This document shows, piece after piece, positions 40,306-58,080 of a DNA stretch of 64,000 nt. The DNA is taken from NCBI GenBank assembly GCA_023663225.1, contig JAMPHU010000006.1, positions 1 to 64,000 of the forward strand. The letters run 5' to 3'. The stretch is from Candidatus Gastranaerophilales bacterium. GTDB lineage: Bacteria; Bacillota; Clostridia; Lachnospirales; Lachnospiraceae. Position 1 is the stretch's first letter, and each line of letters starts with the position of its first letter. Both the position numbers and the translations under genes were made by a program. The notes below the pieces were generated by a model. That model had not been told where the DNA came from. It did no database searches and saw only the letters and a list, made by a program, of their open reading frames with translations.

Positions 40306-40384
40306 TCAGACCGCCCACGGTATTGTGCCCAAAATTGGCCTGTGGGAGGAGTCATAAATATTATATGCAAATATAAGAACAATA

Positions 40385-41549: not shown

Positions 41550-41717
41550 ATGGGAGAAGTAGCTGGGAAGATTTTGGATGGTTTAGTGGGAGTATTTCAA
41601 AGAAATTATAGAAGACCCAAATTATGGATCGGTATAGGGATGGTGTTGATTGTACTTTTTTGGCCCCTTATATGGATTCTTCTTTATGTGGTGAAACATG
41701 AGGACAGAGCACAATGA
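41550..41717 (+). CDS. Small single-pass membrane protein overlapping the helicase frame
   Basis: This 55-residue frame starts at an ATG with aaggataaggg about 8 bp upstream. Residues 1-25 are soluble and basic (FQRNYRRPKLW) and a strong membrane helix follows (LWIGIGMVLIVLFWPLIWIL), then a short charged tail ending EDRAQ. Its TGA falls within the 5' end of the longest frame of the SF1 helicase-nuclease, so translation of the two may be coupled. Nothing in sequence gives a function. Anti-phage operons often contain a small membrane protein as effector or anchor, but that is an inference from context only. Confidence 0.6.
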   Translation: MGEVAGKILDGLVGVFQRNYRRPKLWIGIGMVLIVLFWPLIWILLYVVKHEDRAQ

Positions 41718-41775
41718 GACTGGATACGGAGAGAGGAAAAAAGAAAGTAGCGATAATAAAGAAAGAGATAAGAAA

Positions 41776-44505
41776 ATGAATACAAGAAATAACATGATCA
41801 TTATAAAAGATATCATTAAAACGGCAGAAATAAAATCCTGCAAATATAATCCAGATACAAAAAAGTGGGATATATTATTTAAGAATGATAAAGCCTATTC
41901 GTATGCATATACAAACGTGGAGTGGTTAAAAGAGCCAACCATTTTAGATCCCAATATATATCATATCAGCAGAGAAGGGAAAGAACTTTTTGATATAGTT
42001 GCTATATATGAATTTAAAGGAGAGCATGATTTTTATTGGCACATTTGTTTTGGTAAGGGTAGTGAGAGAGATTATCGTAAAAATGATTTAAATATTGTTG
42101 AATCATGTCTGAGTCAAAGTCAAGCGGTAAATGTGTTTGCGTATATAAAGCAAATTGCAAGATTGAGTGATCTTAAGAATGAAGAAACCGGCGAAAAATT
42201 ATTAGCTAAAAGGTTTGAAAAAATATCATTTGTGGGTAATGATGTAGCGTTAGCAAAGTATTTAAATCCGTCCTTATCACAGACTAATAAGACACAGCGA
42301 GAATATATACCGATTTTTCCATTTGGATGTAATAACAGTCAATATAAGGCTGTTAAAAATGCTATGGAAAATCAGATCAGCGTCATTCAGGGGCCGCCTG
42401 GAACCGGCAAGACGCAAACCATTTTAAATATTATTGCAAACATATTAATGCAGGGGAAAACAGTTCAAATAGTTTCCAATAATAATTCAGCCACAGAAAA
42501 TGTGTATGAGAAATTATCTTCGCAAAAATATAATTTAGGTTTTGTTGTAGCAACTTTAGGCAGTTCCGAAAATAAGAAAAAATTTGTTGAACATCAGGAT
42601 ACAGATTATCCGGATCTTTCGTCATGGAAAATAGAAGAAGATCGGCGTTTTTTGCAGCATAAAATCTCGGAACAATCCATACAGTTAGGAGGTGTTTTTG
42701 ATAAGCAGGAGAGATTGGCACAACTGAGACAAGAATATTCCCAGTTGACCACAGAGCTGGAGTATTTTGATCGATATGTTAAGGATTCGGATATTGATAT
42801 AGAAAGTATGCAATTCAAGACAAAGCTTTCTTCAAAGCGATGGATGTCAATATGGCAAGAATGTCAGATGACTTTGGAAGAAAAACAAAAAATAGGAATT
42901 ATATTTAAAGCGAAAGCCTTTCTTCAATATGGAATCAGGGGTCAAAATTTTTATAAACAAGATATTGTAAAAATCATTGTCATGTTTCAAGCGATGTATT
43001 ACAGGGTCAAGCAAGAGGAACTGATTCAGGAGATTGAGGACATTGAAAAATATTTGAATAATATTAATAAAGATTTACTTGATGACTTGTGTAATCAATC
43101 AATGATTGTCTTAAAAGATAATCTGGCAAGAAAATATGAAGGCAGAAAGAGTCGCAAAATATTTAATGAAGATGATTTATGGAAAAAATCATATGATGTT
43201 TTAGAAGAATATCCGGTTATATTAAGCACAACGTTTTCATCGCGAAACAGCTTAAAGGACGATGTAGTGTATGATTATCTTATCATGGATGAAGCGTCGC
43301 AGGTAGATGTTGCAACCGGAGCTTTGGCATTGTCTTGTGCGAAAAATGTTGTTATTGTCGGAGATACGAAGCAACTGCCCAATGTGGTTACAGATGACAT
43401 AAAATCTCAATCCAAAGCAATATTCGACAGTTTTAATATAAATGAAGGATATCAGTTTACGAAAAGTTTTTTGCAGTCAATTTTGGATGTTATGCCGAAT
43501 GTAACACAAACTTTACTGAGAGAACATTATAGGTGCCATCCTAAAATAATTAATTTCTGCAACCAGAAATTTTATCGTGGTGAATTGATTATAATGACAA
43601 CAGATAAAGGGGAAGAAGATGTTTTGTCTGTAGTGAAAACGGTACAGGGAAATCATGCGCGTAATCATTATAGCCAACGTCAGATAGATGTCATAAAAAA
43701 TGAAATCATACCTAAATATATTTCAAATCCAGAAGATACTGGAATTATAGCGCCTTATAAGAATCAAGTGGAGGCTCTAAAAAAAGAAATAAAAGATATT
43801 GATACTGCAACGGTACATAAGTTTCAGGGTAAGGAAAAAGGGACTATTATCATTTCAACAGTAGATGATGAAATTTCGGATTTTGCAGACGACCCTTATT
43901 TAATCAATGTGGCTGTATCAAGAGCAAAAGAGAAATTGGTACTGGTTGTTACGGGCAATGAACAGGTTAAAGAACGTAATATAACAGATTTAATAGAGTA
44001 CATCCAATATAATAATTTTGAAGTCGTTGATAGCAAGATCAATTCGATTTTTGATTACCTTTATAAGCAATATTATTCGGAAAGAAAAACGTATTTAATG
44101 AAGCACAAAAAGATATCGGAATATGATTCGGAAAATCTTATGTACTCGTTAATAGATGAAATTATTATCGAAAATAAATATTCAAGTTTAGATGTTGTAT
44201 GCCATTTTCCGATGAATATGTTAATTAAGAATCTGGAATTATTAAGTGAGCGAGAATGTCAATATGTGATGAATCCGGCTACTCATATAGATTTTCTGAT
44301 ATACAATAGAATTAGTAAAAAGCCTGTATTAGCGATTGAAGTTGATGGATATGAATATCACAAAAAAGGTACTGTACAAGCTTCACGTGATCTGTTAAAG
44401 GATCATATAATGGAATTGTATGAAATTCCGCTATTGCGATTTAAGACAAATGGTAGCGGCGAGAAAGAGAAAATTGTGGAAATGTTAAATAAGTTGGTTG
44501 AATAA
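41776..44505 (+). CDS. SF1 helicase with C-terminal nuclease-like domain
   Basis: This protein of 909 residues has a UPF1-like superfamily 1 helicase core: Walker A in [15 protein letters not shown] (about 205), motif II DEASQVD (about 504), motif III GDTKQLPNV, and C-terminal motifs VHKFQGKEKGTIIIS and INVAVSRAKEKLVLVV. The last 110 residues resemble a Vsr/DUF2726-like PD-(D/E)xK nuclease: HIDFLIYN (Asp) and VLAIEVDGYEYH (E-x-D). The linked helicase-nuclease plan recalls Nhi-type single-gene phage defence, although there the nuclease is N-terminal. The start is uncertain: the frame opens at 41698 with another ATG, but that overlaps the small membrane protein. A/T-rich codon use, poor ribosome site. 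Role in DNA or RNA degradation is inferred. Confidence 0.85.
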   Translation: MNTRNNMIIIKDIIKTAEIKSCKYNPDTKKWDILFKNDKAYSYAYTNVEWLKEPTILDPNIYHISREGKELFDIVAIYEFKGEHDFYWHICFGKGSERDYRKNDLNIVESCLSQSQAVNVFAYIKQIARLSDLKNEETGEKLLAKRFEKISFVGNDVALAKYLNPSLSQTNKTQREYIPIFPFGCNNSQYKAVKNAMENQISVIQGPPGTGKTQTILNIIANILMQGKTVQIVSNNNSATENVYEKLSSQKYNLGFVVATLGSSENKKKFVEHQDTDYPDLSSWKIEEDRRFLQHKISEQSIQLGGVFDKQERLAQLRQEYSQLTTELEYFDRYVKDSDIDIESMQFKTKLSSKRWMSIWQECQMTLEEKQKIGIIFKAKAFLQYGIRGQNFYKQDIVKIIVMFQAMYYRVKQEELIQEIEDIEKYLNNINKDLLDDLCNQSMIVLKDNLARKYEGRKSRKIFNEDDLWKKSYDVLEEYPVILSTTFSSRNSLKDDVVYDYLIMDEASQVDVATGALALSCAKNVVIVGDTKQLPNVVTDDIKSQSKAIFDSFNINEGYQFTKSFLQSILDVMPNVTQTLLREHYRCHPKIINFCNQKFYRGELIIMTTDKGEEDVLSVVKTVQGNHARNHYSQRQIDVIKNEIIPKYISNPEDTGIIAPYKNQVEALKKEIKDIDTATVHKFQGKEKGTIIISTVDDEISDFADDPYLINVAVSRAKEKLVLVVTGNEQVKERNITDLIEYIQYNNFEVVDSKINSIFDYLYKQYYSERKTYLMKHKKISEYDSENLMYSLIDEIIIENKYSSLDVVCHFPMNMLIKNLELLSERECQYVMNPATHIDFLIYNRISKKPVLAIEVDGYEYHKKGTVQASRDLLKDHIMELYEIPLLRFKTNGSGEKEKIVEMLNKLVE

Positions 44506-44511
44506 TGGAAA

Positions 44512-45117
44512 GTGGGTGGCGCATTGCAGGCAGAGAATACCTTGGAATACTATAACAAGAACGCGAAAGAGTTTGCCGCTGCGACTGTTTCCGTAGAATT
44601 TGAATCTATGCAGAGACGTTTTGCGGACAAGCTGTCCCGAGGCGCACGAATCTTGGATTTTGGATGCGGTTCGGGGAGAGACGCAAAGTATTTTCTGGAT
44701 CGAGGATATCTGGTGGAGGCTGCGGACGGTTCTGAGGAGTTGTGCAAGATTGCCAGCGAATATGCGGGGATTCCCGTGAGGCACATGTTATTTGAAGAGT
44801 TGGATGAGACAGATCGGTATGATGGCATCTGGGCCTGTTCTTCCATCCTGCATTTGCGGAGACAGGAGCTTTCGGAAGTGATGCGGAAGATGGCGTGTGC
44901 GTTGAAGGATCGGGGGATTATTTATACTTCTTTTAAGTATGGAGATTTTGAGGGGGAGAGAAATGGGCGGTATTTTACAGATATGACAGAAGTGTCTTTT
45001 TTGAAGTTGATGGAAGATGTGGAAAACCTGAGAATTGAGGAACAATGGGTCACATCTGATGTGCGTCCAGGGAGAGGAGAAGAGAGATGGCTCAATTTGA
45101 TCCTGCGGAAAGAGTAG
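44512..45117 (+). CDS. Class I SAM-dependent methyltransferase
   Basis: This 201-residue enzyme has a Rossmann-type methyltransferase fold with motif I ILDFGCGSGRDAKYF (about 45-57), an acidic motif II (VEAADGSEEL), and motif IV-like DGIWACSSILHL. Its N-terminus (LEYYNKNAKEFAAATV) is like the TehB/UbiE-type family. The start is unsure: a GTG at 44512 is used here, and a TTG at 44524 would give MQAENTLEYY, the usual beginning in relatives. The gene overlaps the PLD-SF2 helicase by 31 bp and follows the SF1 helicase by 6 bp. Similar methyltransferase-helicase pairs recur in Firmicutes; whether the substrate is DNA, RNA or a small molecule is unknown. Confidence 0.85.
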   Translation: MGGALQAENTLEYYNKNAKEFAAATVSVEFESMQRRFADKLSRGARILDFGCGSGRDAKYFLDRGYLVEAADGSEELCKIASEYAGIPVRHMLFEELDETDRYDGIWACSSILHLRRQELSEVMRKMACALKDRGIIYTSFKYGDFEGERNGRYFTDMTEVSFLKLMEDVENLRIEEQWVTSDVRPGRGEERWLNLILRKE

Positions 45118-47606
45118 AAGAAGGAGAACGGGAGCTGGGAGAGATTACATTTGAAAATACGATGGTCGAACCGACGGATGTGATGACCGGAGGCAGAGAT
45201 CAGGGGCGGTTTCTGTATTATCAATTAAAAATGAGTATGAAGAAGGCCGAGAGAATTGACATCATTGTGTCCTTTTTGATGGAATCGGGGGTCAGGATGC
45301 TGTTAAAGGACTTGAAGGCGGCCTTGGACAGAGGGGTCAAGGTGAGGATGCTCACGGGAAATTACTTGGGAATCACACAGCCTTCCGCTCTTTGCCTGAT
45401 CAAAAAGGAATTGGGGAATCGCGTGGACTTGCGCTTTTATGGGGAGAAAGGCAGATCGTTTCACCCTAAGGCTTATATATTTCACTATAAAGATATGAGC
45501 GAAATATATATTGGCTCCTCTAATGTCTCCAGAAGTGCGTTGACATCGGGGATTGAGTGGAATTATCGTTTTAGCAGCATAGCGGATAAAAAGAATTTTT
45601 TGTTGTTTTATGAGGCCTTTGAAGATTTATTTTTTGGACACTCTATAGAGATAGATGATGAGGAATTACGCAGATATTCAAAAAATTGGCACAGACCGGC
45701 TGTGGCGAAGGATTTGGCAAGATATGACACCCGAGAGGAAGATGATAGGGTGGAAGCGCTCTTTCAACCAAGAGGAGCACAAATAGAAGCGTTGTATGCG
45801 CTGGAAGATAGTCGAATGGAAGGAGCCGCGAAAGGGTTGGTACAGGCGGCAACCGGCGTAGGCAAGACCTATCTTGCAGCCTTTGATTCTGCAAAATACA
45901 AGAGGGTGCTTTTTGTTGCACACAGGGAGGAAATTTTAAAACAGGCGGCGATATCTTTTAGAAACGTGCGAAACTCGGAAGATTATGGGTTTTTCTATGG
46001 CAAAAAGAAGGAGACGGACAAGTCGGTCATATTTGCTTCCGTGTCTACGCTCGGCAGGGAAGAATATTTAAAGAGCGAGTATTTTGTGGAAGATTATTTT
46101 GATTATATTGTCATAGACGAATTTCATCATGCGGTCAACGAGCAGTACAAGAATATTGTAAATTACTTTAAACCGAAATTCCTGTTGGGACTCACGGCAA
46201 CGCCGGAGCGTATGGATGGTAAAAATATATATGAACTGTGTGATTATAATGTGCCTTATGAGATCTCTCTGAAAGAAGCGATCAACAAGGGAATGTTGGT
46301 GCCGTTTCACTATTATGGAATTTATGATGAGACGGATTATTCCGGCCTGCATCTGGTAAAGGGGCATTATGAAGAAAAGGCGTTGACGGAACTTTATAGG
46401 CACAATCCCGAAAGATATGAGCTGGTCTATAAATATTATACAAAGTATCGTTCGGAGAGAGCTTTGGGATTTTGCTGCTCCAGGCAACATGCAGAGGAGA
46501 TGGCAGAGCAGTTCTGTGTGCGCGGGATTCCGGCGGCAGCCGTGTACAGCAATGCAGAGGGCGCTTTTTCGGAAGACAGGGATAAGGCAGTCGCTCGATT
46601 GAAGAATGGTGAGATCAAGGTGATCTTTTCGGTTGATATGTTTAATGAGGGACTGGACATTGCCTCGTTGGATATGGTTATGTTTCTCAGACCTACCGAA
46701 TCGCCGATTGTATTTTTGCAGCAGTTGGGAAGAGGACTCCGCACTTACAGAGGAAAGGAATACTTAAATGTTCTGGACTTTATTGGAAATTATGAAAAGG
46801 CGGGAAGGGTTTCTCTATTGCTGGGCGGTGGAAGTACTCTAAGTGAAAGGAGGTTTTGTGACTCTGGCAGTATAGAGTATCCTGATGATTGTATTGTAGA
46901 TTTTGATATGCGTTTGATCGACTTGTTCAAGGAGTTGGAACGGAAATCATTGTCTATGAAGGAGAGGATCGTTAAGGAATATTATCGAGTTAAAGAATTG
47001 ATGGAAGGGAAGGTTCCTACTCGAATGGAGCTGTTTACTTATATGGAGGATGAGGTATACCAGTATTGTATGACTCATGCAAAGGAAAATCCTTTTCGCA
47101 GATATCTGGATTTTCTATATGAGCTGGGTGAGCTTTCAGCGGAAGAAGGGCTATTATACGCGGGAATGGGGCGTGAGTTTATTGCAGTTATTGAGACAAC
47201 AGATATGCAAAAGGTGTATAAAATGCCTATCTTGTATAGTTTTTATAATCATGGCGACATTCGCTTGGAGATCACAGATGAGGATGTCTTGAGGAGTTGG
47301 AAAGAGTTCTTTGACACAGGAACAAACTGGAAGGATTTTTCGGAGAATATTTTTTATGAAAACTATAAAAACATGACCGATAAGCAGCATTTGAGTAAGG
47401 CAAAGACAATGCCGATCCGGTTTTTAAAGGCATCGGGAAAAGGGTTCTTTGTCGAGAAGGAGGGTTATGCGCTCGCGATCAGGGAAGAGCTGAGAGAGTG
47501 GGTTGAGAATGAGGCGTTGAAGTGGCATATGGGGGATGTGCTGGAGTATAGAACGATGGAGTATTATAGGAGGAGGTATGTGGAAAGGGGAAGAAGGGAA
47601 GCATAG
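45087..47606 (+). CDS. PLD-domain SF2 DEAD/DEAH-type helicase
   Basis: This 839-residue protein has an N-terminal phospholipase D-like nuclease domain (about 40-190) with the HxK element FHPKAYIF (about 125) followed by IGSSNVSRSAL, as in PLD-like DNA-end nucleases, and an SF2 helicase core: Walker A QAATGVGKTYLA (about 252), motif II VIDEFHH (about 343), motif III GLTATPERMDG, and motif VI QQLGRGLRT. The C-terminal 250 residues have no motif I know; long relatives (about 950-1050) carry DUF3427 there, so this one may be shorter. The PLD-helicase combination is found in restriction-like and phage-defence genes. It overlaps the methyltransferase gene by 31 bp and has a good ribosome site (agaggagaaga). 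Confidence 0.88.
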   Translation: MAQFDPAERVEEGERELGEITFENTMVEPTDVMTGGRDQGRFLYYQLKMSMKKAERIDIIVSFLMESGVRMLLKDLKAALDRGVKVRMLTGNYLGITQPSALCLIKKELGNRVDLRFYGEKGRSFHPKAYIFHYKDMSEIYIGSSNVSRSALTSGIEWNYRFSSIADKKNFLLFYEAFEDLFFGHSIEIDDEELRRYSKNWHRPAVAKDLARYDTREEDDRVEALFQPRGAQIEALYALEDSRMEGAAKGLVQAATGVGKTYLAAFDSAKYKRVLFVAHREEILKQAAISFRNVRNSEDYGFFYGKKKETDKSVIFASVSTLGREEYLKSEYFVEDYFDYIVIDEFHHAVNEQYKNIVNYFKPKFLLGLTATPERMDGKNIYELCDYNVPYEISLKEAINKGMLVPFHYYGIYDETDYSGLHLVKGHYEEKALTELYRHNPERYELVYKYYTKYRSERALGFCCSRQHAEEMAEQFCVRGIPAAAVYSNAEGAFSEDRDKAVARLKNGEIKVIFSVDMFNEGLDIASLDMVMFLRPTESPIVFLQQLGRGLRTYRGKEYLNVLDFIGNYEKAGRVSLLLGGGSTLSERRFCDSGSIEYPDDCIVDFDMRLIDLFKELERKSLSMKERIVKEYYRVKELMEGKVPTRMELFTYMEDEVYQYCMTHAKENPFRRYLDFLYELGELSAEEGLLYAGMGREFIAVIETTDMQKVYKMPILYSFYNHGDIRLEITDEDVLRSWKEFFDTGTNWKDFSENIFYENYKNMTDKQHLSKAKTMPIRFLKASGKGFFVEKEGYALAIREELREWVENEALKWHMGDVLEYRTMEYYRRRYVERGRREA

Positions 47607-47880
47607 TAAAGTTTCCAATAAAGATGAGAAATATTAGAGAGATGCGTATGTAGGATAGTAAAAATAAAATATGGATCTTTGTTATATCAAGTTTAAATTT
47701 ATTGAGCTAATTTTAACATATAAGTTTTAGTTTTGTGTCTTACTATGAGCCTTATTGTTGTAGTAAGATGCACAGATGCTTATTCAAATGCAAAACGAAA
47801 GTATGCAATTTATCTCACAAAATAATATAATTTTTTGGTGATATAGAATTGGCATATGGATAAAAGAAAGAAGAGTGGAT

Positions 47881-50800
47881 ATGTTTAACGATTTAGAAAA
47901 AAATAGGGAGATGCTGTTAGGTGCATATAAAAAAGTAAAAAGTTATTATCATTATAATAAGAATTTTGTTTTTATGAAGCAAAAGGTTGCAAAGTTAGAA
48001 TATGATTATCAACACATGTTAAACACTATTGATAAGTTGGCTAAAATATTGGCTTATCCGAATGTGATGGAAAATAGTAAATCTATAAATGCTTGGATTG
48101 AGAAAATAAATTTCTATATTATGCCCAAATCATTTATAAATAAAGAAGAAAATAACGACTTATTTATAACAGGAAATTTGAGAGAGAATAAAAGTGTAAA
48201 TAAAGTAAATTTTTTCATTGATATGCCAATAGAATTGCATTTATTGGATGCTCTTTGGACGGTTTTGATAGGAAAATTGGTATTTGAAAAAGAATTAATA
48301 TCTTCAGAATGTTATGGAAATTGTATTGATAACTATGTTTTATATAATAATCAAAAAGACTATTTAGACTCGATCAATTTTAGCAAAAATAAGTTGTTTA
48401 AAATTTACTTTCCGCAGTACTGCAAATGGAAAAATGATGCAATAAGGACTGTAGAAGAAAAATTTTATTTGAACAAAAGTCAGATATTGTTTTCTCTTGA
48501 TATTAAAGGTTTTTTTTATTCTGTTTTTTGGAAGTTTACAATATTAGATGATATTTTCGGAGAAGATTCTCGATATAAAGAATTGATTTTTCTTACAAAG
48601 ATTATTCAAAAAATATTTGAAAGATATACAAATATTATTAGAGATTACCGTATAGTTAAACAAGAAATAGAGAAGCAAGAATATGTTTTACCAATTGGAT
48701 TATTTAGCTCAATGCTCTTAGCAAATATTTACATGATCGATTTTGATAAAATGCTAAAAGATAATCCTAAGGTATTGCATTATGGTCGATATGTTGATGA
48801 TATTATTATTGTCATAGACGTATCAGGAGACGAACGAAATGTTAGCGACAGAACGGCATTTGATAAATATTTAGTTGAAGACAATCATATTTTGGAATAT
48901 ATAAAAGGGGACAGATATGCAATTTGTAATTTATCAACTTTATTTATTCAAAAAGAAAAAGTTAAAATGATTTATTTTGACAAAAATGATTCGCCAGTGT
49001 TGATTGATCAAATGAAAAAAGCTATTACGTATCCGAGTCAAATGAATGTTATACCTGAAACAGAGTTAAGTATAGTAGACTTTGAAGAAGCAGCATATGC
49101 AAAAACAGGGATCGGAACAGAAACAAAAATCAGAGATATTGGTAAAGTACAAATTGATAAATTTCAATTAGGATGGCACATGTCTCAAGTTGTTATAAAT
49201 AATAGGATTAAGAAACAGTATATTACAAGAGATGAGAAAATACGAAGACAAAAGGAAGGTGACAGTATTCTTAGGTTTTTTACAGGGAGCAAAGCTTTGG
49301 AATATTCAAGTAATTGGATAAATGCAATGTATTATTTTTTATTAACAGCGGATACAAATCGAAATGCTTGGAAACAATTTGAATATAATATAAGAAGTGC
49401 AATTAAGGAGTTGACAGCGGATCGGATTGAAGATTTAAAAAAAGGGAAAAAAAGAAACGTTGTGGCAATATTAAAAAGAGATTTGAAACAACACTTTGAT
49501 ATATGTGCAGCAACTGTTTTAGCATTATATCCAAAGTTTAGTAAAAAGGAAAACAAAGAGATTGTTAAACTTGCTATTCAATTAAGAAAAGCGAATTTAT
49601 TTAATCATTATTTGGTATCATTTCCGTTGATTAATTATTCTGATAATTTAGATGAAAATTGTGATTTGACGAGTATATCTCCAGATAAAATACGTGATAT
49701 GAAGTTGATGATACAAAATAGTCAAAAATCAAAATTGTCTCCTAGGTTTATTAATTTGGATGAAATATATCAATTTGTATTTTTGAGACAATGTACTAAA
49801 GGTGGAAATTATTATCAGAATACAGATAAATGGACGGTAGAGGATAAATTAAATTACATAGAGGACTATTTTTATTATGTTAATCAAATTAACAAGAGTA
49901 CGGTAGATCATATAGCAATTTCGATTGATAATATAGAAAATCAAGGTTACATTTTACAAAAAATAAAATTGGGTGATGTGAATAGCACAAAAGGAAATGT
50001 AAAAATTGCGATTGCAAATATCAAGCTAGATACAAAGAGATGTTGTTTTGGCTTAAAGTGTGCTGAAAATGTAACGTTGAATAGATTAGATCTTATTGCA
50101 TTTATGAACAGAACCTATATGGATGGGAGGGATAAAGTAGATTTTTTGGTGTTTCCAGAATTTTATATGCCATTACAATGGATATCAGAAGTTTTGGCGT
50201 TTGTAAGAAAGAGTGGAATTACAGTAATTTCAGGTTTACAATATGTTACATATAATGGGCAGGCCTATAATAATGTTGCATTATTTGCACCCGTTAAAAC
50301 AGGACGTTATTTAAATGCTGTTTTATTAGTGCGAGAAAAGAATGACTATGCCCCTATGGAGCGTGAATTGCTAGCCATAGAAAAATACAGATGTATTAAC
50401 CAAGCAAAGCCTGTTTATCAAGTGGTAAATTGTGATGGTATAGATTATGGTATTTTTTTATGTTATGAGTTTACAGATATTGTGGCTAGAAGTTTATATA
50501 AGGATAAGGTGGATATAATTTTTACACCAGAACATAATAGAGATACGTCTTATTTTGCGAATATAATTGAAACAACTGCTAGAGATTTGCATGTGTTTAT
50601 TGTTCAAGCAAACACATCAATTTATGGTGATTCAAGAATAACGGGACCTTATGGCAGAAATGATAGAAATGTTATACAAATAAAGGGAGGAGATAGAGAT
50701 GATATTATTGTAGGAACAATTGAGTTGGGGAAATTAAGGAAATATCAACAGGAAGAAAAAGATAAATTTAATAAAAAAATTCAAGAATACTTAGGACTTG

Positions 50801-50898
50801 GTAAAAGAAAAGTTTATGAACTGGAAAGGCAGATGTTTGCAGAGCACGAGTTAAAGATAGCAAAGACATCTGCAAGGTTTGGAAAAGAAAATATATAA
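47881..50898 (+). CDS. Reverse transcriptase-nitrilase fusion (UG1/DRT type 1-like anti-phage RT)
   Basis: This protein of about 1005 residues joins two enzyme types. The N-terminal part contains a reverse transcriptase: motif A in SLDIKGFFYSV (Asp about 207), a later PIGLFSSMLLANIY, and the catalytic YVDD in HYGRYVDDIIIVI (about 305). A helical middle region (about 400-700) follows. The C-terminal part (about 705-960) is a nitrilase/CN-hydrolase with the expected Glu-Lys-Cys triad: VFPEFY (about 761), a Lys in VREKNDYAP (about 820) and Cys in FLCYEFTD (about 862). RT-nitrilase fusions are known among the unknown-group (UG) anti-phage RTs, notably UG1 (DRT type 1) and UG5. The gene is very A/T-rich and alone on its transcript; an ATG at 47881 (aagag 5 bp upstream) is preferred over the GTG at 47875. 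The upstream gap 47607-47880 has a 7-bp hairpin but no obvious non-coding RNA. Confidence 0.9.
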   Translation: MFNDLEKNREMLLGAYKKVKSYYHYNKNFVFMKQKVAKLEYDYQHMLNTIDKLAKILAYPNVMENSKSINAWIEKINFYIMPKSFINKEENNDLFITGNLRENKSVNKVNFFIDMPIELHLLDALWTVLIGKLVFEKELISSECYGNCIDNYVLYNNQKDYLDSINFSKNKLFKIYFPQYCKWKNDAIRTVEEKFYLNKSQILFSLDIKGFFYSVFWKFTILDDIFGEDSRYKELIFLTKIIQKIFERYTNIIRDYRIVKQEIEKQEYVLPIGLFSSMLLANIYMIDFDKMLKDNPKVLHYGRYVDDIIIVIDVSGDERNVSDRTAFDKYLVEDNHILEYIKGDRYAICNLSTLFIQKEKVKMIYFDKNDSPVLIDQMKKAITYPSQMNVIPETELSIVDFEEAAYAKTGIGTETKIRDIGKVQIDKFQLGWHMSQVVINNRIKKQYITRDEKIRRQKEGDSILRFFTGSKALEYSSNWINAMYYFLLTADTNRNAWKQFEYNIRSAIKELTADRIEDLKKGKKRNVVAILKRDLKQHFDICAATVLALYPKFSKKENKEIVKLAIQLRKANLFNHYLVSFPLINYSDNLDENCDLTSISPDKIRDMKLMIQNSQKSKLSPRFINLDEIYQFVFLRQCTKGGNYYQNTDKWTVEDKLNYIEDYFYYVNQINKSTVDHIAISIDNIENQGYILQKIKLGDVNSTKGNVKIAIANIKLDTKRCCFGLKCAENVTLNRLDLIAFMNRTYMDGRDKVDFLVFPEFYMPLQWISEVLAFVRKSGITVISGLQYVTYNGQAYNNVALFAPVKTGRYLNAVLLVREKNDYAPMERELLAIEKYRCINQAKPVYQVVNCDGIDYGIFLCYEFTDIVARSLYKDKVDIIFTPEHNRDTSYFANIIETTARDLHVFIVQANTSIYGDSRITGPYGRNDRNVIQIKGGDRDDIIVGTIELGKLRKYQQEEKDKFNKKIQEYLGLGKRKVYELERQMFAEHELKIAKTSARFGKENI

Positions 50899-51058
50899 AT
50901 GTTATGTATTAACTTTCTACTGCCCAAATTAGTGAAAACGTTTGCATTATCAAGTAAAAAATGTAATGAATAGGTGTGTTGACGTTAAAATAGCACCTAA
51001 TTTTTTGTATAATAAGATCACCACAATATAAACTATACAAAGAAAAGGTACTGACCTT

Positions 51059-51258
51059 ATGATAAACCAACTTTGCATCTGTGAAGATACCCAAAATTAG
51101 TTTTCTAATGCAATCAGAGAACTTCAACTTGAAAAGTTGCTGTGTAAAGCAAGCATTACTAAAACCTGTGTTATTTCCGTATAAGAGGTGTTTCAGTTTC
51201 TCCTGTTGTTAGTATTTCGGGGAACGAATTTTTTCTGTTTTTTAAACGATACTTCTTT
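51059..51258 (+). pseudogene. Possible degraded transposase 5' end (IS4-like)
   Basis: A frame starting at the ATG at 51059 (MINQLCICEDTQN) meets a stop after 13 codons; further in the same frame the text NAIRELQLEKLLCKA and, after another stop, FQFLLLLVFRG recalls the N-terminus of IS4-family transposases of Clostridia. Two stops make it a pseudogene. The match is from memory. The 50899-51058 stretch is A/T-rich with nothing else visible. Confidence 0.3.
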
Positions 51259-51399
51259 TAACGGGATAAGGTTCCTTTTGCTTCCGTCTGCAAAAGTGAC
51301 CAGCGCGTTCAGTTCTCTTGCATAAAAGACAATAAATATAGGGGCCGAGCTCAGATCTGCTTTAACGAGGTCATAATGCCGCAGTTGATCTTTCCACAA
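51193..51399 (-). CDS. Uncertain 68-codon ORF, higher G+C than surroundings
   Basis: A 68-residue frame opens at a TTG immediately after a stop codon and has no clear ribosome site. The composition looks coding (LVKADLSSAPIFIVFYAREL..), basic toward the end (FKKQKKFVPRNTNN), but it overlaps the transposase-like remnant on the other strand. I do not recognise it. It may be a gene fragment. Confidence 0.3.
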   Translation of the reverse strand: MWKDQLRHYDLVKADLSSAPIFIVFYARELNALVTFADGSKRNLIPLKEVSFKKQKKFVPRNTNNRRN

Positions 51400-51436
51400 T
51401 TACTGAAGGATTAACTTCGGTATTCTTTTAAATCAA

Positions 51437-51509
51437 TTTACCTCACAGGTAAAGCATCTGTTGACAAAATGTACTATTTATGATAATGTGAATTTACCTC
51501 CAAGGTAAA
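51437..51509 (+). promoter_or_regulatory. Promoter flanked by two TTTACCT-N3-AGGTAAA operators (HigA)
   Basis: Two copies of TTTACCT-N3-AGGTAAA lie at 51437-51453 and 51493-51509, 56 bp apart centre to centre. Between them are TTGACA (51461-51466) and a -10-like GATAAT (51482-51487; 15-bp spacer, TG-extended). The truncated HigB frame starts 17 bp after the second copy. Paired inverted repeats around a promoter fit autoregulation by the HigA-type antitoxin encoded downstream. Confidence 0.75.
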
Positions 51510-51525
51510 TGCGGAGAGGTGTAAA

Positions 51526-51726
51526 ATGGAGATAAAATATAAAACTAAAAAGCTTAGGAAAATATGCACAGATGCCACGAAGGCAGAAAAAACATATGGC
51601 AAAGAAATGTCTGAAAAGATTCAGATGCGCATAGATGAAATTTTGGCTGTAGATACTGTTGAGATGATGATGGATAATCACATTGGCAGATGTCATTCGC
51701 TTAAAGGCGACAGAAAAGGGCAATAG
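51526..51726 (+). pseudogene. higB: HigB/RelE-family toxin, truncated after 66 codons
   Basis: The first 66 residues follow the plasmid-maintenance killer-protein (HigB-like, RelE fold) family: MEIKYKTKKLRKICTDAT..AEKTYGKEMSEKI..RIDEI. and IGRCHSLKGDRKGQ. Full-length members run to 90-100 residues, continuing QYAMDLV.P.RLVF..., which holds the C-terminal beta strands and catalytic residues. Here TAG follows GDRKGQ directly, and the antitoxin ribosome site starts at once. The toxin is therefore probably inactive. RBS gagagg precedes its ATG. It overlaps neither neighbour and lies 13 bp before the HigA gene. Confidence 0.75.
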
Positions 51727-51739
51727 AGGAGGTGGCACC

Positions 51740-52792
51740 ATGGTGAAGAGTCGGAGTTTTATTGCTACACCGCCGGGAGCGACAATCAAAGAGCAGCTTA
51801 ATGATAGAGGAATGAGTCAGAAAGAATTTGCTCTAAGGCTGGATATGTCAGAAAAGCATATCAGTAAACTTATTAACGGAGATGTTCAGTTGACTCCGGA
51901 GATGGCTGTCAAACTTGAAATGGTGCTCGGAGTTCCTGCGAGATTTTGGAATAATCTTGAAGCGATATATAGAGAAAAGCTGATTAAAGTAGAAGTTGAA
52001 AATGCAATGGAAGAGGATGAAGCTTTGGCAAAGCAGCTTCCTTATAGCGAGATGGCAAAATACGGATGGGTTCTGGAAACGCGAGTTGCAAAAGAGAAGG
52101 TAGTAAATTTAAGAAGATATTTTGAAGTAGTAAGACTTTCGTTGCTTGAAAATAATCAGATTACAAGAGTTGCGTGCAGAAGACTTGCTATTACGGAAAA
52201 AGGGGATTTGGCATTATTGGCTTGGGCGCAAGAAGCAAAGATTAAGGCGCGGAATATAGAAACCGCGTCTATAAATATTAAAAAATTGAATTCGATATTA
52301 CCTGAGATTCGCAAGATGACCATTTTGAATCCAGATGAATTTTGCCCAAAACTTAAGGGGTTATTGGCAGATTGTGGCATTGCGTTAGTATTTTTGCCGC
52401 ACTTGAAAGGATCTTTTTTGCAGGGGGCCACTTTTATGGATGGCAATAAAATTGTTATGGGATTGACCGCGAGAGGAAAAGATGCTGATAAGTTTTGGTT
52501 TAGTCTGTTTCATGAATTGGCGCATATTTTTCTCAGGCATATTGATCAGCCAAATGGTACGACAGAGCAGGATGAAAAAAATGCTGATGCATGGTCAAAG
52601 GATACTCTAATACCGGTAGAATATTATGAAAGTTTTATAAGTAAAGGCGATTTTTCGGCTGAGAGCATCCGTAGTTTTGCCAGATTGTTGGAGATTGCAC
52701 CTGGTATTGTGGTGGGCAGATTACAGAAGGAATGTCTTATTGAGCATAACAGAATGAATGATCTGAAGGAACAATATATTATTACTGTATAA
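51740..52792 (+). CDS. higA: HigA-type XRE antitoxin fused to an ImmA/IrrE metallopeptidase-like domain
   Basis: This protein of 350 residues has an XRE helix-turn-helix of HigA/VapI type (about 10-70; GATIKEQLNDRGMSQKEFALRLDMSEKHISKLINGDVQL) and a C-terminal ImmA/IrrE (DUF955-like) domain (about 220-340) with the zinc motif HELAHIFLRH (about 258) and a later KNADAWSKDTLIP. The helix-turn-helix half is a HigA antitoxin; the metallopeptidase half is the type that degrades repressors on signal. The ATG at 51740 has AGAGGAGGTGG 3-7 bp upstream. Its toxin partner is truncated, but the antitoxin and its two operators are intact, which suggests it is kept as a regulator. Confidence 0.88.
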   Translation: MVKSRSFIATPPGATIKEQLNDRGMSQKEFALRLDMSEKHISKLINGDVQLTPEMAVKLEMVLGVPARFWNNLEAIYREKLIKVEVENAMEEDEALAKQLPYSEMAKYGWVLETRVAKEKVVNLRRYFEVVRLSLLENNQITRVACRRLAITEKGDLALLAWAQEAKIKARNIETASINIKKLNSILPEIRKMTILNPDEFCPKLKGLLADCGIALVFLPHLKGSFLQGATFMDGNKIVMGLTARGKDADKFWFSLFHELAHIFLRHIDQPNGTTEQDEKNADAWSKDTLIPVEYYESFISKGDFSAESIRSFARLLEIAPGIVVGRLQKECLIEHNRMNDLKEQYIITV

Positions 52793-52811
52793 TTCATAAA
52801 TCGTACCTGCT

Positions 52812-53028
52812 TGCGTTTTTATATCTGCTCTCCTATCAAAAAAATAGTGATGCGGCGACGGTAAAGGTGCTGCGGGCAATTCTTGATGGCAGTATTGTGC
52901 CATTGTATCATAATGAGATTTTGGCAGAGTATGATGAATGTTGCATAGGGAGAAGTTTCATTTTGAAGAAAAGTCTATACAGATGGTACTTATGGAGGTT
53001 TTCCCACAGCCTACGGGAGAAATCTTTG
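52812..53028 (+). pseudogene. Frameshifted PIN-domain toxin remnant
   Basis: Translating in pieces gives VFISALLSK (frame 1), then NSDAATVKVLRAILDGSIVPLYHNEILAEYDE (frame 2, one base changed in a run of seven A), then LHREKFHFEEKSIQMVLMEVFPQP (frame 3). Together these match the N-terminal half of PIN-domain toxins (DTNVLVSALLSK..AATV, LYH..I..EY.EVL.R.KF.F), with two frameshifts and no intact start. The C-terminal half is missing, cut off by the convergent MazF-like gene. It follows higA by 19 bp, so the same region once held a second toxin. Confidence 0.75.
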
Positions 53029-53700
53029 CTAATTTGTCTTTGATGTTGTAATCTGATTTTGTAAAGTTTCCAATTTTATTTTAAGCTGTTTGTTTTCGGC
53101 TTTCAATATATTGTTATGATCTGCCGCTTCTTTGAGCTGTTCATTTAAGGATGCGACTGCTTGAAGGTTCTGTTCATAATCATAATAAAAGCTGGGAAAA
53201 TACTTTTGCAGTACAAGCTTTTCTATTTGTTTGTATGTATCAGACGATGGCGGGATTCGCCCGCTTTGTTGGTAAAGAATCCTGTTTACGCTGGCAGTCC
53301 GGATATCATTCAGTTTTAACACTGAATCATGCGTGATGAATGAAAATTCACTGTTTTTAAGCAGGAACATATCGCTTTTGGAATCCGGTTGGTCAATAGG
53401 GTGGTAAACATCCGGATGCTTAAGTGGATCATAGGAAAAGATTGGGAGTACATAGAGCAGTTTCTGCTTCACGCCGATCACCAGTCCCCTGTGTTCATAG
53501 GACATCTCAGGGATATAGTTTTTCCCAAACTCAAATTGGTATATTTCCCCCTTCTTCACTGCTTTGTGCCGGAAAGGCTTGGCCCTATTATCTGCCCACC
53601 GGTAATCTGATTTGGAAAAGCGGCTAAGTTCGTCAGGACTGTATACATTTCTCAGGACTGTCTCGTTTGTCTTGTTTTGTGCCTTCAGATATTCTTTCAA
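53029..53700 (-). CDS. MazF/PemK-like toxin-type protein with C-terminal coiled coil
   Basis: This protein of about 223 residues has a MazF/PemK-like beta-barrel section (about 49-150): KKGEIYQFEFGKNYIPEMS then EHRGLVIG, the usual basic/aromatic strand and RP/RG-x-x-V-I-G element, followed by LYVLPIFSYDP and FITHDSVLKLNDIRTAS. The last 60 residues form a coiled coil (LNEQLKEAADHNNILKAENKQLKIKLETLQNQI). MazF-fold toxins cut RNA; type III ToxN/AbiQ toxins share the fold. The TTG at 53700 is preferred (AAGGGGAG 7 bp upstream); a longer frame would run through a terminator hairpin. Immediately upstream lies a structured, terminated leader RNA. Function as a toxin is inferred, not proved. Confidence 0.75.
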   Translation of the reverse strand: MKEYLKAQNKTNETVLRNVYSPDELSRFSKSDYRWADNRAKPFRHKAVKKGEIYQFEFGKNYIPEMSYEHRGLVIGVKQKLLYVLPIFSYDPLKHPDVYHPIDQPDSKSDMFLLKNSEFSFITHDSVLKLNDIRTASVNRILYQQSGRIPPSSDTYKQIEKLVLQKYFPSFYYDYEQNLQAVASLNEQLKEAADHNNILKAENKQLKIKLETLQNQITTSKTN

Positions 53701-53725
53701 TATGTTACTCCCCTTCTTTATGGAT

Positions 53726-53874
53726 AAAAAAGGGTATGGCACTAACCATACCCTACTCTGGTTGCCCAGAGAGACCTCGTCGGTCAAATTATCCTTTCAA
53801 ATGCGGCCTCGTCAGCCAAAAACACTTATACAAGTGTGAAAGAACAATCTTTCAGAGGCAGAATGTACCTCTGA
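53726..53874 (-). ncRNA. Structured leader RNA with covarying GACGA hairpins and terminator
   Basis: Read on the minus strand from a promoter (-10 at 53884-53879; a second copy of the same 15-bp promoter element at 53985-53971), the RNA would start near 53872 and contain in order: a 7-bp hairpin (53852-53874), a 5-bp hairpin (53823-53836), hairpin GGCU-GACGA-GGCC (53805-53817), hairpin GACC-GACGA-GGUC (53773-53785, 32 bp on), hairpin CUCUGG-GCAA-CCAGAG with a GNRA tetraloop (53756-53771), and a terminator GGGUAUGG/CCAUACCC plus six U (53726-53753). The two GACGA hairpins keep the loop while the stems vary by compensating changes. No protein is encoded. A type III-like antitoxin RNA or a cis-acting attenuator are the two readings. 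Confidence 0.65.
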
Positions 53875-54048
53875 ATATATTATACACAATTTTTCAAAAA
53901 AATCTACTGTTTTTTTCAAAAATCTCATCTGTATTTTACTGGAAATGAGCTTGTGATATTTCCTATTTTTATTATACACAATTTTCTGTAAAAACCAGTG
54001 AAATTTTTTGAAAATTATATACTTATGCTTTCACACGACGGACTTTCA

Positions 54049-54378
54049 TCATGACATTTCTTCTTTTATAATACGACATATTGATATTATAATACGTTTT
54101 TGAATTTCTGTACATCCTATAAGCAGAGATGGATCTTCATTTTCTATAGCAAACCCTTTCTTTTTTTGTATATCTCTCAGTAAATCATCCACAGTGGTAT
54201 CCAGCGCGTTGGCAATTAGTAATATTGTTTTCAGACTGGGATGTTTTTTACCGGATTCAATCCGACAGAGATAGTCCGGTGCGATTTCGGCTTTTTCGGA
54301 CAACTTTTCCTGTGTCCAAAATTTTTGTTTACGCAATTTTCGGATACGCAGACCGATAGCAATGTAATCAATTTTCAT
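54049..54378 (-). CDS. XRE-family transcriptional regulator
   Basis: This 109-residue protein has an N-terminal Cro/cI-type helix-turn-helix (about 8-65; LRIRKLRKQKFWTQEKLSEKAEIAPDYLCRIESGKKHPS) and a short C-terminal helical region. GGGAGG lies about 7 bp before the ATG at 54378. It is divergent from the recombinase operon, with an 11-bp inverted repeat between the two (54406-54433) that is a plausible operator. Regulators of this kind often control excision or operon expression in mobile elements. Confidence 0.85.
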   Translation of the reverse strand: MKIDYIAIGLRIRKLRKQKFWTQEKLSEKAEIAPDYLCRIESGKKHPSLKTILLIANALDTTVDDLLRDIQKKKGFAIENEDPSLLIGCTEIQKRIIISICRIIKEEMS

Positions 54379-54405
54379 TTGAACGCCTCCCGTCAATTTA
54401 TTGGT

Positions 54406-54433
54406 CTGATGGTCAATTTTTCTTGACCATCAG
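54406..54433. promoter_or_regulatory. 11-bp inverted repeat, candidate XRE operator
   Basis: CTGATGGTCAA (54406-54416) and TTGACCATCAG (54423-54433) are perfect arms around six bases in the intergenic region between the divergent XRE and recombinase genes. Half of the same motif recurs at 54391-54400. Its T-run could also make a weak terminator. Confidence 0.55.
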
Positions 54434-54536
54434 TACATGGAATTACTGAGAGTAATTTTATAAAATTACTATAGAGATTTCATTTAAAATTTTGAAATTG
54501 CAAATATAAAACTTGTAGTATAGGAGTGGTATTTTT

Positions 54537-56405
54537 ATGAAAGCGGCAGAATTTTTCGATGGTAATGTTGACGCACAAAAATCCAGAATAAGGTCACGCT
54601 ATCAAGGTATTGACCCTGGCTTATTGGAAGTGATCCCCGCGAAGCCTGTAGAGGGTTTATATGATGACAATGTATTCAGAAGAGTAGCGGTTTACGCGCG
54701 AGTTTCTACAGATGATCCACGACAGACATCTTCATATGAATTACAGAAAAACTATTACGAGAAATATGTCAGTAGTTTTCCGAATTGGGAACTGGTTCAT
54801 ATTTATGCGGATGAAGGGATCAGCGGAACTTCGCTGCAGCACAGGACTTCTTTTAATCAAATGATTGCAGACTGTAGGGATGGCAAAATTGATATGATCA
54901 TTACCAAAGGTGTTTCCCGTTTTTCGCGTAATATTGTAGATTGCATTGGAATTGTAAATATGCTGAAACAACGGATTCCACCGATAGGAGTACTTTTTGA
55001 GAACGAACAGATTTTTACCTTAAACCCACAGTCAGAAATGAGTTTGTCTTTCGTTGCGGCTATGGCACAGGAAGAATCTCATGTAAAAAGTACCAGCATG
55101 AACGCATCATATGAAATGCGCTTTTCTCATGGAATTTTTATGACACCGCCGTTGTTAGGTTATGATCAGGATGAAACTGGAAACTTGGTTGTCAACAGAG
55201 AAGAGGCAAAAACAGTTCGTTTGATCTTTTTTATGTACTTGTATGGATACTCGACTCAGCAGATTGCAAATGTATTGACCAAACTGGAGCAGCCAACCAA
55301 AAGGGGAAATATAACTTGGAGCAGCAATTCTGTATTAGGTGTTTTGCAGAATGAGAGGCATTGCGGGGAGGTGTTGGCGCACAAAACGTTTACCCCCAGC
55401 TATCTTGACCATAAGACACGCAAAAATTGTGGTGACCGAAATCAGTATAGGCAGCCTAATCATCATGAAGCGATTATCGCGCCAGAGGACTACGTTGCAG
55501 TGCAAAGAAAAATCAGCAATGCAAAATATGGCGGAAGCGGTATACCGGAACTGCATGTGATTCCGGAAGGAGCCTTGAAAGGTTTTGTCATTATCAATCC
55601 AAGGTGGGCGTCCTTTAACGCAGAAGACTATAGAATTGCATCGGCGGAAGCTGAAAAGGAAATCAGTTCCATGGATAATATTATAGTGAATCCTCAAAAT
55701 GGTGATCTGGATCTCCGCGGATATGAGATTGCACGCACGGAATTTTTTAATGAGGGCTCGAAAATCAGCGTGACACTTTCTATAGATGGCATGAAGTTTG
55801 GAATAGATGCCCTGCAAAAGCTGGACAATGTGCCATATGTGGAACTGTTGATTCATCCGCGGCTGCATCAATTAGCGGTTCGTCCCAGTAAAAAAGAAAT
55901 TCGAAGCTCTATAAAATGGGCAACTGCTGCTAATATAAAATATTATCCAAAAATGATTACAGGAGCGGCATTTCTGCCAACACTATTTGAATTGTTTAGA
56001 TGGAACGTTGAATATCGTTATCGGGTTACGGGCATTCGCCGTCAGAAAGGCAGTGAAACGGTGTTATTATTTGATTTACATGAAACAGTGGTTTTGATAC
56101 CGGCTGAGAAGGTTCAAAAATTCTGCGAGGATAACAATCTTTTGGAATCAGAGTTTGCGCCTATAAATATGTCCGGCTATAAAGAAAAGATAGTTGCTTA
56201 TCCGCTGCCGTGGGCGCAAAGTTTTGGCAGTGAATTTTATCAGCACACGCAGACGTCTCTTGGCAGTGGTATAGACAATAGCGGTCTGTGGAATGTGACA
56301 GATCAGGGAAATGCTTATTATGGTCGTGAGCCACAGCCGCGTTCGAAAGAACATATTGAGCAAGATATTCTGCAGCTTATGAGAGAATTGCAAAAGGAGG
56401 AATGA
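54537..56405 (+). CDS. Large serine recombinase without the usual zinc ribbon
   Basis: This 622-residue protein has a resolvase/invertase catalytic domain (about 48-190): VAVYARVSTDDPRQTSSYELQ (catalytic Ser about 56), DEGISGTSLQHRTSF, ITKGVSRFSRNIVD; a recombinase DNA-binding domain (about 200-330; GYDQDETGNLVVNREEAKTVRLIF, then STQQIANVLTKL and NERHCGEVLAHKTFTPSYLDHK); and a C-terminal region of about 250 residues. The Cys-rich zinc ribbon usual for large serine integrases (CxxC..CxxC) is not visible; instead the region contains GYEIARTEFFNEG and WNVEYRYRVTG. This C-terminal domain recurs in two small genes downstream. It starts at ATG 54537 (ataggagtgg). It is the first gene of a five-gene operon and the likely integrase of the island. 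Confidence 0.88.
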   Translation: MKAAEFFDGNVDAQKSRIRSRYQGIDPGLLEVIPAKPVEGLYDDNVFRRVAVYARVSTDDPRQTSSYELQKNYYEKYVSSFPNWELVHIYADEGISGTSLQHRTSFNQMIADCRDGKIDMIITKGVSRFSRNIVDCIGIVNMLKQRIPPIGVLFENEQIFTLNPQSEMSLSFVAAMAQEESHVKSTSMNASYEMRFSHGIFMTPPLLGYDQDETGNLVVNREEAKTVRLIFFMYLYGYSTQQIANVLTKLEQPTKRGNITWSSNSVLGVLQNERHCGEVLAHKTFTPSYLDHKTRKNCGDRNQYRQPNHHEAIIAPEDYVAVQRKISNAKYGGSGIPELHVIPEGALKGFVIINPRWASFNAEDYRIASAEAEKEISSMDNIIVNPQNGDLDLRGYEIARTEFFNEGSKISVTLSIDGMKFGIDALQKLDNVPYVELLIHPRLHQLAVRPSKKEIRSSIKWATAANIKYYPKMITGAAFLPTLFELFRWNVEYRYRVTGIRRQKGSETVLLFDLHETVVLIPAEKVQKFCEDNNLLESEFAPINMSGYKEKIVAYPLPWAQSFGSEFYQHTQTSLGSGIDNSGLWNVTDQGNAYYGREPQPRSKEHIEQDILQLMRELQKEE

Positions 56406-56411
56406 TAATTT

Positions 56412-57014
56412 ATGGAAACAGAAGAGAAAATAGCAGAAGAAACTTTTAGTTATGAGGGTTATCAGGTTGTTCGAGGTGAGTTTTTTGCCCATACTTTTGA
56501 GCCCACGATTACTTTTTGTGACAGTAGGGTTTATGTTAATACGGCTTGCTTAAATCGGATGCCGACTGTGGAGTATATTCAGATATTGATTAATCAACAG
56601 ACTAAGAAACTTGTAGTGCGTCCTTGTAAGGAGGATGAAAAAGATTCTTTTCGGTGGTGCAGCAATACGGGAAAACGCAAACCCAAACAGATTACTTGTC
56701 GAATTTTTTATGCTAAGTTGGTGGAGATGATGCAGTGGAATCCCACGTATCGCTATAAATTATTAGGGAAACTTATTGCTGCTAACAGTGAACGACTTTA
56801 TATTTTTGACTTGACAGCGACAGAGGTATATCAGCGTATTCAGCAGGCGAGTGGGAAAATCAGGAATGGTCGCACGCCGATCTTTCCACTGGAATGGCAA
56901 AATCAATTTGGTTTGCCGGTGGAAGAACATCGCAGGCAGTTGCAGATCAATATTTTTGACGGATATACAGTTTTTGGGATTAAAGACTGTTATAACAATG
57001 AAGTGGCGAGGTGA
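56412..57014 (+). CDS. Accessory protein homologous to the recombinase C-terminal domain
   Basis: This 200-residue protein aligns along nearly its whole length with the C-terminal part of the recombinase encoded just upstream: GYQVVRGEFFAHTFEPTITF with GYEIARTEFFNEGSKISVTL, then VEYIQILINQQTKKLVVRP with VPYVELLIHPRLHQLAVRP, then WNPTYRYKLLGK with WNVEYRYRVTG, and PLEWQNQFG with PLPWAQSFG. Such an arrangement suggests gene duplication followed by loss of the catalytic domain. It begins 6 bp after the recombinase stop with a weak ribosome site. A role as co-factor or regulator of recombination is inferred. Confidence 0.8.
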   Translation: METEEKIAEETFSYEGYQVVRGEFFAHTFEPTITFCDSRVYVNTACLNRMPTVEYIQILINQQTKKLVVRPCKEDEKDSFRWCSNTGKRKPKQITCRIFYAKLVEMMQWNPTYRYKLLGKLIAANSERLYIFDLTATEVYQRIQQASGKIRNGRTPIFPLEWQNQFGLPVEEHRRQLQINIFDGYTVFGIKDCYNNEVAR

Positions 57015-57168
57015 TGGTAAAATTCTGATTCGGCAGCTTGGCAGTATCTGTCCGAATTGGAATGAAGACGGAAAATATCGACTGTATGGAGTCTGTATTC
57101 AGGATGGGTTGTTAATTCAATTTGATATGTCTGCGGCAGAGGAATTGGGAAAGGAAGCGGTAATATGA
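56998..57168 (+). CDS. Short 56-residue copy of the same accessory domain
   Basis: This small frame starts at an ATG overlapping the previous gene by 17 bp and its stop overlaps the ParB-like gene (ATGA). Its text includes WNEDGKYRLYGVCIQDGLLIQFDMSAAEEL, parallel to WNPTYRYKLLG..YIFDLTATEVYQ and WNVEYRYRVTG..LLFDLHETVVL in its neighbours. So it keeps the second half of the shared domain, a third and shorter copy. A longer frame opening at 56851 in the same phase lies wholly within its neighbour and is not used. Its start by translational re-initiation is likely. Confidence 0.65.
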   Translation: MKWRGDGKILIRQLGSICPNWNEDGKYRLYGVCIQDGLLIQFDMSAAEELGKEAVI

Positions 57169-58079: not shown

Positions 58080-58080
58080 T

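Follow-up and report, generated by a model that had tools for sequence, protein, structure and literature searches.

The gene described here, at 47881..50898 on the plus strand of contig JAMPHU010000006.1 (assembly GCA_023663225.1), encodes a 1005-residue protein that joins a reverse transcriptase (RT) to a C-terminal nitrilase, and it almost certainly belongs to the UG5-nitrilase family of RTs. It lies in a 64,000-nucleotide stretch from Candidatus Gastranaerophilales bacterium (Lachnospiraceae in GTDB), hereafter the window, whose positions are used throughout; residues of the window protein (P0001) are numbered from the ATG at 47881. As a whole, the gene is a real, intact and ordinary member of a known family and not a new system. 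It probably acts as a single-gene defence RT of class 3 of the UG/Abi RTs, with a mechanism resembling that of DRT1. This reading is supported by family membership, by the retained catalytic residues, by an island carrying defence-like genes and by DNA conservation restricted to the frame; by analogy, we infer an anti-phage function. The DRT and UG names reportedly originate with Gao 2020 and Mestre 2022.

The assignment was based on PADLOC profiles, whose bit scores are given here as raw values without PADLOC's own acceptance cut-offs. The RT_UG5-nitrilase model PDLC03780 matched the protein with 617.9 bits over residues 8-965 (profile positions 22-885 of 907), and the second such model, PDLC02995, with 248.2 bits over residues 9-957. 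The RT half scored 265 bits on PDLC03781 (RT_UG5_small) and residues 745-964 scored 105.2 bits on RTasNitrilase, whereas Drt1a gave 82.1 bits in two pieces only. Lesser PADLOC matches were to Drt3a (44.1 bits), Drt2 (43.1), a CRISPR-linked RT (34) and the retron model RT_II-A (28.6), and the sole NCBIfam match was Drt3a, whose 47 bits fall below the cut-off of 200. As score controls, Drt1a gave 1440.8 bits with the DRT1 protein L177, and RT_II-A gave 153.5 bits with the retron-like RT found elsewhere in this genome. The window protein fits PDLC03780 less well than others do, since six relatives from an order-wide search scored 678-819 bits and the plasmid-borne L175 and L178 scored 1034 and 1017 bits. 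Fusion to a nitrilase has been described for UG classes 1 and 5, with a UG5-nitrilase co-occurrence of 50%, in the available part of PMC8934634. A first-pass annotation, made from the letters of the window, had placed the gene in either UG1 (DRT type 1) or UG5, and the near full-length match now narrows this to UG5-nitrilase.

To place the protein among its relatives, 96 rows were collected and the 76 with at least 900 residues were aligned. The row set left out L001, L004-L007 and L014 (duplicate or partial) as well as loci above L098; L039, L078, L083 and L091 had no frame past the filter, and L068 and a second L065 frame were omitted. Alignment A2 was built from P0001 and 72 of the 76 frames listed. 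Setting aside four DRT1 rows together with the outliers L175, L178, L097 and L098 leaves 68 UG5-nitrilase rows, or 66 distinct proteins (L002/L021 and L003/L022 are identical genes), which we call "core" as a working label; L175 and L178 are also UG5-nitrilase by PADLOC. Both UG5-nitrilase models match all 68 rows at E <= 1e-60 (batches of 30 and 38), and none of these rows matches Drt1a at that threshold. Their median length is 1017 codons (range 918-1170; stop-to-stop frames, some ended by contig edges), and the four DRT1 frames span 1225-1288 residues. The earlier impression that the protein is shorter than DRT type 1 proteins is thus correct, yet its length is normal for UG5. The suggestion of a divergent branch that came with it needs correcting, because the shortness holds against DRT1 only.

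More specifically, a full-length tree of the 76 rows, rooted on DRT1, places the window protein among the 68 UG5-nitrilase rows and not with the four DRT1 rows. It groups with L015 and L016 with a Shimodaira-Hasegawa-like approximate likelihood ratio test (SH-aLRT) support of 100, next to five rows from Clostridia, Fibrobacter and a metagenome-assembled genome (MAG) labelled proteobacterium (SH-aLRT 99). All of these lie inside a wider, mainly clostridial UG5 branch of 15 rows, including two identical pairs (SH-aLRT 100). The tree came from a short search with SH-aLRT as its only support measure, and the program flagged long branches as well as an uneven letter composition of 17 rows. Membership of DRT1 (UG1) was rejected on the fragmentary Drt1a match, on length (1005 against about 1230 residues) and on the position outside the DRT1 clade.

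The frame itself consists of 1005 open codons uninterrupted by stops, and frame 1 of the opposite strand is riddled with them. Although 47875 carries an in-frame GTG, the DNA match with L015 and L016 begins at the ATG. Pfam RVT_1 matches residues 195-313, the RT domain core (48463..48819, +, as are all features of the gene), with 33.5 bits against a cut-off of 29.6, and CN_hydrolase matches residues 769-955 with 24.7 bits against 23.2. Together with RTasNitrilase, the latter defines a nitrilase domain at residues 745-965 (50113..50775). These matches confirm the proposal that an RT with a YVDD motif and a C-terminal nitrilase share one frame. The middle region between them (about residues 480-740, 49318..50100) probably corresponds to the helical domain of DRT1, judging from its position and from the DRT1 layout in the available part of PMC13275509. 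The catalytic YVDD occupies residues 304-307 (48790..48801), and its D306 and D307 are present in 68/68 rows, as are the predicted catalytic Glu760 (50158..50160) and Lys820 (50338..50340). The predicted catalytic Cys861 (50461..50463) is found in 67/68, the remaining row being a gap, and aligns with a cysteine in all four DRT1 rows. The proposed Glu-Lys-Cys triad thus gains a second conserved glutamate, Glu827 (50359..50361), kept in 68/68 rows. Gene decay was rejected, with both active sites retained and no stop in the frame.

Beyond the active sites, conservation points to a candidate priming residue. The available passages of PMC13275509 (Neville et al. 2026) identify S402 as the residue on which DRT1 primes; it lies 77 residues past D325, in a loop unresolved in PDB 9yfd. 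Within residues 311-478 of the window protein, seven columns are at least 80% conserved (V311, Q357, K360, S386, P392, K416 and R418), of which S386 alone carries a hydroxyl group. Ser386 (49036..49038), our putative DNA-priming serine, is Ser in 67 of the 68 rows and Thr in the other. Serine is also found in the four outlying UG5-like rows and, in an added alignment, in 16 of 18 shorter rows that are RT-only or cut (the exceptions being a gap in L038 and a Gln in L079). It sits 79 residues past D307, a spacing of 77-86 within the 15-row branch. Furthermore, RT-region profiles of 68 UG5 and 6 DRT1 rows align significantly (local E 1.9e-16), and the global version of this alignment sets S386 opposite S403, one residue off S402.

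Several observations weigh against equating the two serines. The local profile alignment ends short of S386, the global one has low confidence at this residue, and MAFFT puts a DRT1 serine in the S386 column in none of four rows. The distance from D307 to S386 widens to 77-147 over all 68 rows, and the available passages of PMC13275509 state that other class 3 RTs do not conserve S402. Further tyrosines and serines are conserved as well, for example Y16, Y176, Y180, S277 and S913, so that a different residue could be the primer. We treat the correspondence between S386 and S402 as a lead, since the alignment is weak and the published account denies conservation of S402.

A second element that may be shared with DRT1 is located at the C-terminus. 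In DRT1, as described in the available part of PMC13275509, the C-terminal residues are exchanged from one subunit to another and shut the nitrilase; K1219 and A1223 are essential, and K1219A and A1223F are as damaging as C-terminal deletions. The four DRT1 rows end in K-x-x-P-A-G, which aligns with a UG5 motif, K-x-x-[PS]-[PA], present in 62 of 65 full-length UG5 tails and in 6.7% of shuffled tails (L010, L056 and L060, cut or broken, were excluded). The UG5 motif and its alignment to DRT1 come from the present analysis and do not appear in the available passages of that paper. The only tails without the motif are those of P0001, L015 and L016, which read I-A-K-T-S-A-R-F. In the window protein this lid-like variant of K-x-x-P-[PA] spans residues 993-1000 (IAKTSARF, 50857..50880), with Ala994 in place of the lid lysine and a lysine at 995. 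The replacement, found in 3/3 members of this clade, weighs against the DRT1-like reading, and lid control may differ in these three proteins because Ala replaces a lysine whose exchange for Ala in DRT1 is that damaging. Elsewhere in the 15-row branch, L002, L003, L013, L021, L022 and L023 carry CxxC-type cysteines, zinc-ribbon-like, in a C-terminal extension that precedes the lid motif. The window protein has a C-terminal extension without these cysteines, and the CxxC pairs of L002, L003 and L013 were accordingly set aside.

Taken by analogy with DRT1, these elements suggest how the protein might work. The RT would attach a short, template-free DNA chain to its own protein, most likely at Ser386. 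The attached DNA would drive protein assembly and thereby let the nitrilase form an active oligomer, which the C-terminal lid would hold closed. Phage infection would loosen the assembly, the nitrilase would then attack an essential cell molecule, and the infected cell would die ahead of phage release. For DRT1, the available text of PMC13275509 reports template-free, protein-primed synthesis, a requirement for both RT and nitrilase, and abortive infection as the outcome. It also reports that DRT5S and DRT5L, of the same class as DRT1, make protein-linked DNA without added template. From their class and names we infer that these are UG5 small and large, a name that the available passages do not use.

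More tentatively, UG5 RTs in general may prime on the near-invariant serine at Ser386 as the counterpart of DRT1 S402, with a DNA-controlled, lid-gated nitrilase common to the nitrilase RTs of class 3 and a rewired lid in the P0001 clade; we regard this combination as somewhat more likely to be wrong than right. It runs contrary to the non-conservation of S402 stated in the available part of PMC13275509. If Ser386 does prime and both families have the lid, a single mechanism would span DRT1 and at least the 68 UG5-nitrilase genes of this comparison, which were drawn from several bacterial phyla and from two methanogen bins. The family comparison names the exact residues to probe in UG5-nitrilase proteins. 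No dedicated paper on the UG5 mechanism was found in our literature searches, which left subscription journals mostly outside their coverage. In older naming, "DRT5" may denote a group other than UG5. Two 2026 papers, PMC13213688 and PMC13314766, list the "DRT5" mechanism as open in their available parts.

Other explanations were weighed against this DRT1-like reading. That the gene is a group II intron, retron or diversity-generating RT which acquired a nitrilase has a negligible chance of being right. Such RTs share the fold, and an RT-core tree of 44 hand-picked rows unites UG5 and DRT1 rows with a support of 88/97, just under the strong-support mark of the tool. This tree does not resolve the branching of DRT1 among UG5, but in it the group stands separate from L179 (a group II intron RT), L180 (retron-like) and eleven viral-contig RTs, and the RT_UG5 models far outscore RT_II-A on the window protein, a model on which L180 scores well. 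The placement with UG RTs, for which the first-pass annotation had asked for a tree and profile check, is thereby borne out, although the exact place of L179 and L180 is unsure because both rows have long branches. Retron identity was rejected on the RT_II-A score and the separate tree position, and group II intron identity on the latter and on the lack of a maturase-type domain match; for both, Rfam returned no family match within 38000-60000. This Rfam result also bears on the proposal that the RT copies a specific adjacent non-coding RNA, as DRT2, DRT9 and DRT10 do, with the nitrilase as downstream effector, which we consider improbable. Several wider UG/Abi RTs use non-coding RNAs according to the available part of the literature, L015 and L016 share about 200 bp upstream at 69% identity (the window does not), and a 97-bp stretch is common to L021 and L022 at 83%. 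DRT1 and DRT5S/L, in contrast, need no added template (PMC13275509, available part). Furthermore, the window gene matches L015 at 84% and L016 at 82% DNA identity, and despite this its flanks (500 bp upstream and downstream) give a best match of only 21 bp (E 0.03), so that the conservation is confined to the reading frame. The flanks of L018/L024, L061/L088 and L041/L042 likewise lack clear similarity (best match 20 bp, E 0.010), and L085/L087 and L058/L059 are near-identical throughout, hence uninformative. A non-coding RNA partner in the flanks was rejected on the flank comparisons and the Rfam search.

Membership of a multi-gene defence system together with the adjoining helicase and restriction-like genes appears very unlikely. 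Same-strand genes do lie upstream (41698-47606), but 274 bp separate the RT gene from the nearest of them, similarity to L015 and L016 is limited to the single frame, and these two relatives have other neighbours: a type I restriction R subunit and PDC-M22A/B at L015, and a DolB-like piece at L016. Fixed partner genes were rejected on that ground. A less remote, though still unlikely, alternative accepts a DRT1-like start and holds that the lid of the P0001 clade no longer restrains the nitrilase, with control lying elsewhere, for instance in the longer C-terminal extension or in lower expression. The exchange of Lys for Ala is exclusive to these three of the 65 full-length rows, and by eye their C-terminal tails are longer than most. 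A lysine nevertheless follows one position on, at 995, and A998, R999 and F1000 match residues of other rows, so that the lid may just be re-registered. The change is, moreover, common to genes that are 80-82% identical, which indicates that it is tolerated.

The gene lies in an inserted, A+T-rich island between pyrG and ftsH, with approximate boundaries of 38084..58894. In 13 of 30 other genomes of the genus searched, pyrG and ftsH are adjacent on one contig, 0.24-3.3 kb apart; in the remaining 17, one of them is absent or they lie on different contigs. In the window the distance is 20.9 kb. Alignable sequence returns at about 38070-38083 and 58895-58923 in five of six sites compared (the sixth, L197, aligns on the pyrG side only), giving an island of about 20.8 kb. 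In five of six compared relatives the pyrG-ftsH gap holds an open frame of about 500-600 codons, and in one it measures about 0.24 kb. The G+C content is 28.3% for the RT-nitrilase gene, 37.1% for the island and 50.1% for the remaining window, in agreement with the A/T-richness first noted. A search of island repeats revealed no convincing mobile-element ends.

Besides the UG5-nitrilase RT, the island encodes a Phd/YefM antitoxin, a sigma factor with a zf-HC2 protein, AbiD, a superfamily 1 helicase with DUF2726, a methyltransferase, a PLD-ResIII protein, a HigA-like helix-turn-helix protein, a serine recombinase and a DUF6551 protein. The AbiD/Abi_2 gene is located at 40385..41266 (-; PADLOC AbiD, 259.8 bits), and the PLD-ResIII helicase, which is type IV restriction-like, at 45087..47606 (+; mREase_IV, 347.5 bits). 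The HigA-like protein at 51683-52792 carries an M78-like part below the Pfam cut-off, scores 134.4 bits on PD-Lambda-2_B and could be a component of another defence system. At the left island end, the Phd/YefM antitoxin (38238-38555, -) has no partner toxin that we could see, and no toxin was detected among 15 window frames scanned, the RT included, with smaller frames outside the scan. Of the neighbours initially reported, the abortive-infection gene and the helicases are present, whereas the "toxin genes" are antitoxin-like. As to the initial suggestion that the gene may be alone on its transcript, the nearest same-strand frames of at least 80 codons are 274 bp away upstream and 784 bp away downstream, and promoter-like matches (26 against 24.2 in shuffles) show no excess.

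In a single-protein search for relatives of the gene at E <= 1e-20, 6 of 397 genomes of the family match, its own included; at E <= 1e-60, the UG5 model matches 7 of 392 genomes of the order, again including its own, and none of 14 control genomes. Among 84,980 species genomes, at least 587 stretches fit the search pattern and at least 468 encode something related at E <= 1e-3, not all of which need be UG5. Among the 80 loci kept, the closest are L015 (82% identical) and L016 (80%), both full-length and from Lachnospiraceae MAGs; the remaining 78 reach at most 37% identity over the best segment. The query matches 7 of 72,556 plasmid records, none covering 80% of it, and none of 50,697 phage records. 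In viral contigs, a single-sequence scan found no relative and DRT1 was likewise not found, and an alignment-based scan gave 139 relatives, of which 80 were kept; L095-L098 alone span most of the query, and in the other 76 similarity is limited to the RT motif region. A class-wide search for further DRT1 matched 1 of 274 genomes, namely the centre genome itself.

Some relatives deserve separate mention. L175 (CP088862.1, 103-3312), a UG5-nitrilase of 1034 bits on an E. coli plasmid, is annotated as a hypothetical protein and lies near a tail fibre gene and a recombinase gene. L045 and L065 are UG5-nitrilase frames in methanogen-labelled genome bins, possibly through contamination. In L071-L077, L084 and L086, UG5-type RT frames have about 650-730 codons, and the nitrilase is probably a separate gene since the nitrilase part of the query matches nearby. 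In the genome of the window itself, L179 (1045-1917) is by eye a group II intron-type RT frame, possibly a fragment, and the retron-like RT L180 (324-2355) adjoins a nucleoside deoxyribosyltransferase-like gene.

The window protein can be compared with four known systems. It is closest to the UG5-nitrilase RTs of PDLC03780 and PDLC02995, with which it shares a whole-length match, domain order, length, catalytic residues and the conserved serine; it differs in its lower model scores and in the change of the lid lysine to alanine in its three-member clade. With DRT1 (UG1, PDB 9yfd; PMC13275509, available part) it shares an RT, a middle region and a C-terminal nitrilase with E-K-E-C, a lid-like C-terminus (a variant of K-x-x-P-A in the window protein) and a serine about 77-79 residues past YVDD. 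DRT1 proteins are larger, at 1225-1288 against 1005 residues, their Drt1a model gives the window protein only 82.1 bits, and they form a separate clade. UG5-small systems with a separate nitrilase gene resemble the RT half (265 bits) and retain the serine in 16 of 18 short rows, but their RT frame ends at about 650-730 codons, whereas the window protein holds both domains in one frame. The retron-like RT L180 of the same genome has the RT fold in common with it and differs in having no nitrilase and a different place in the tree.

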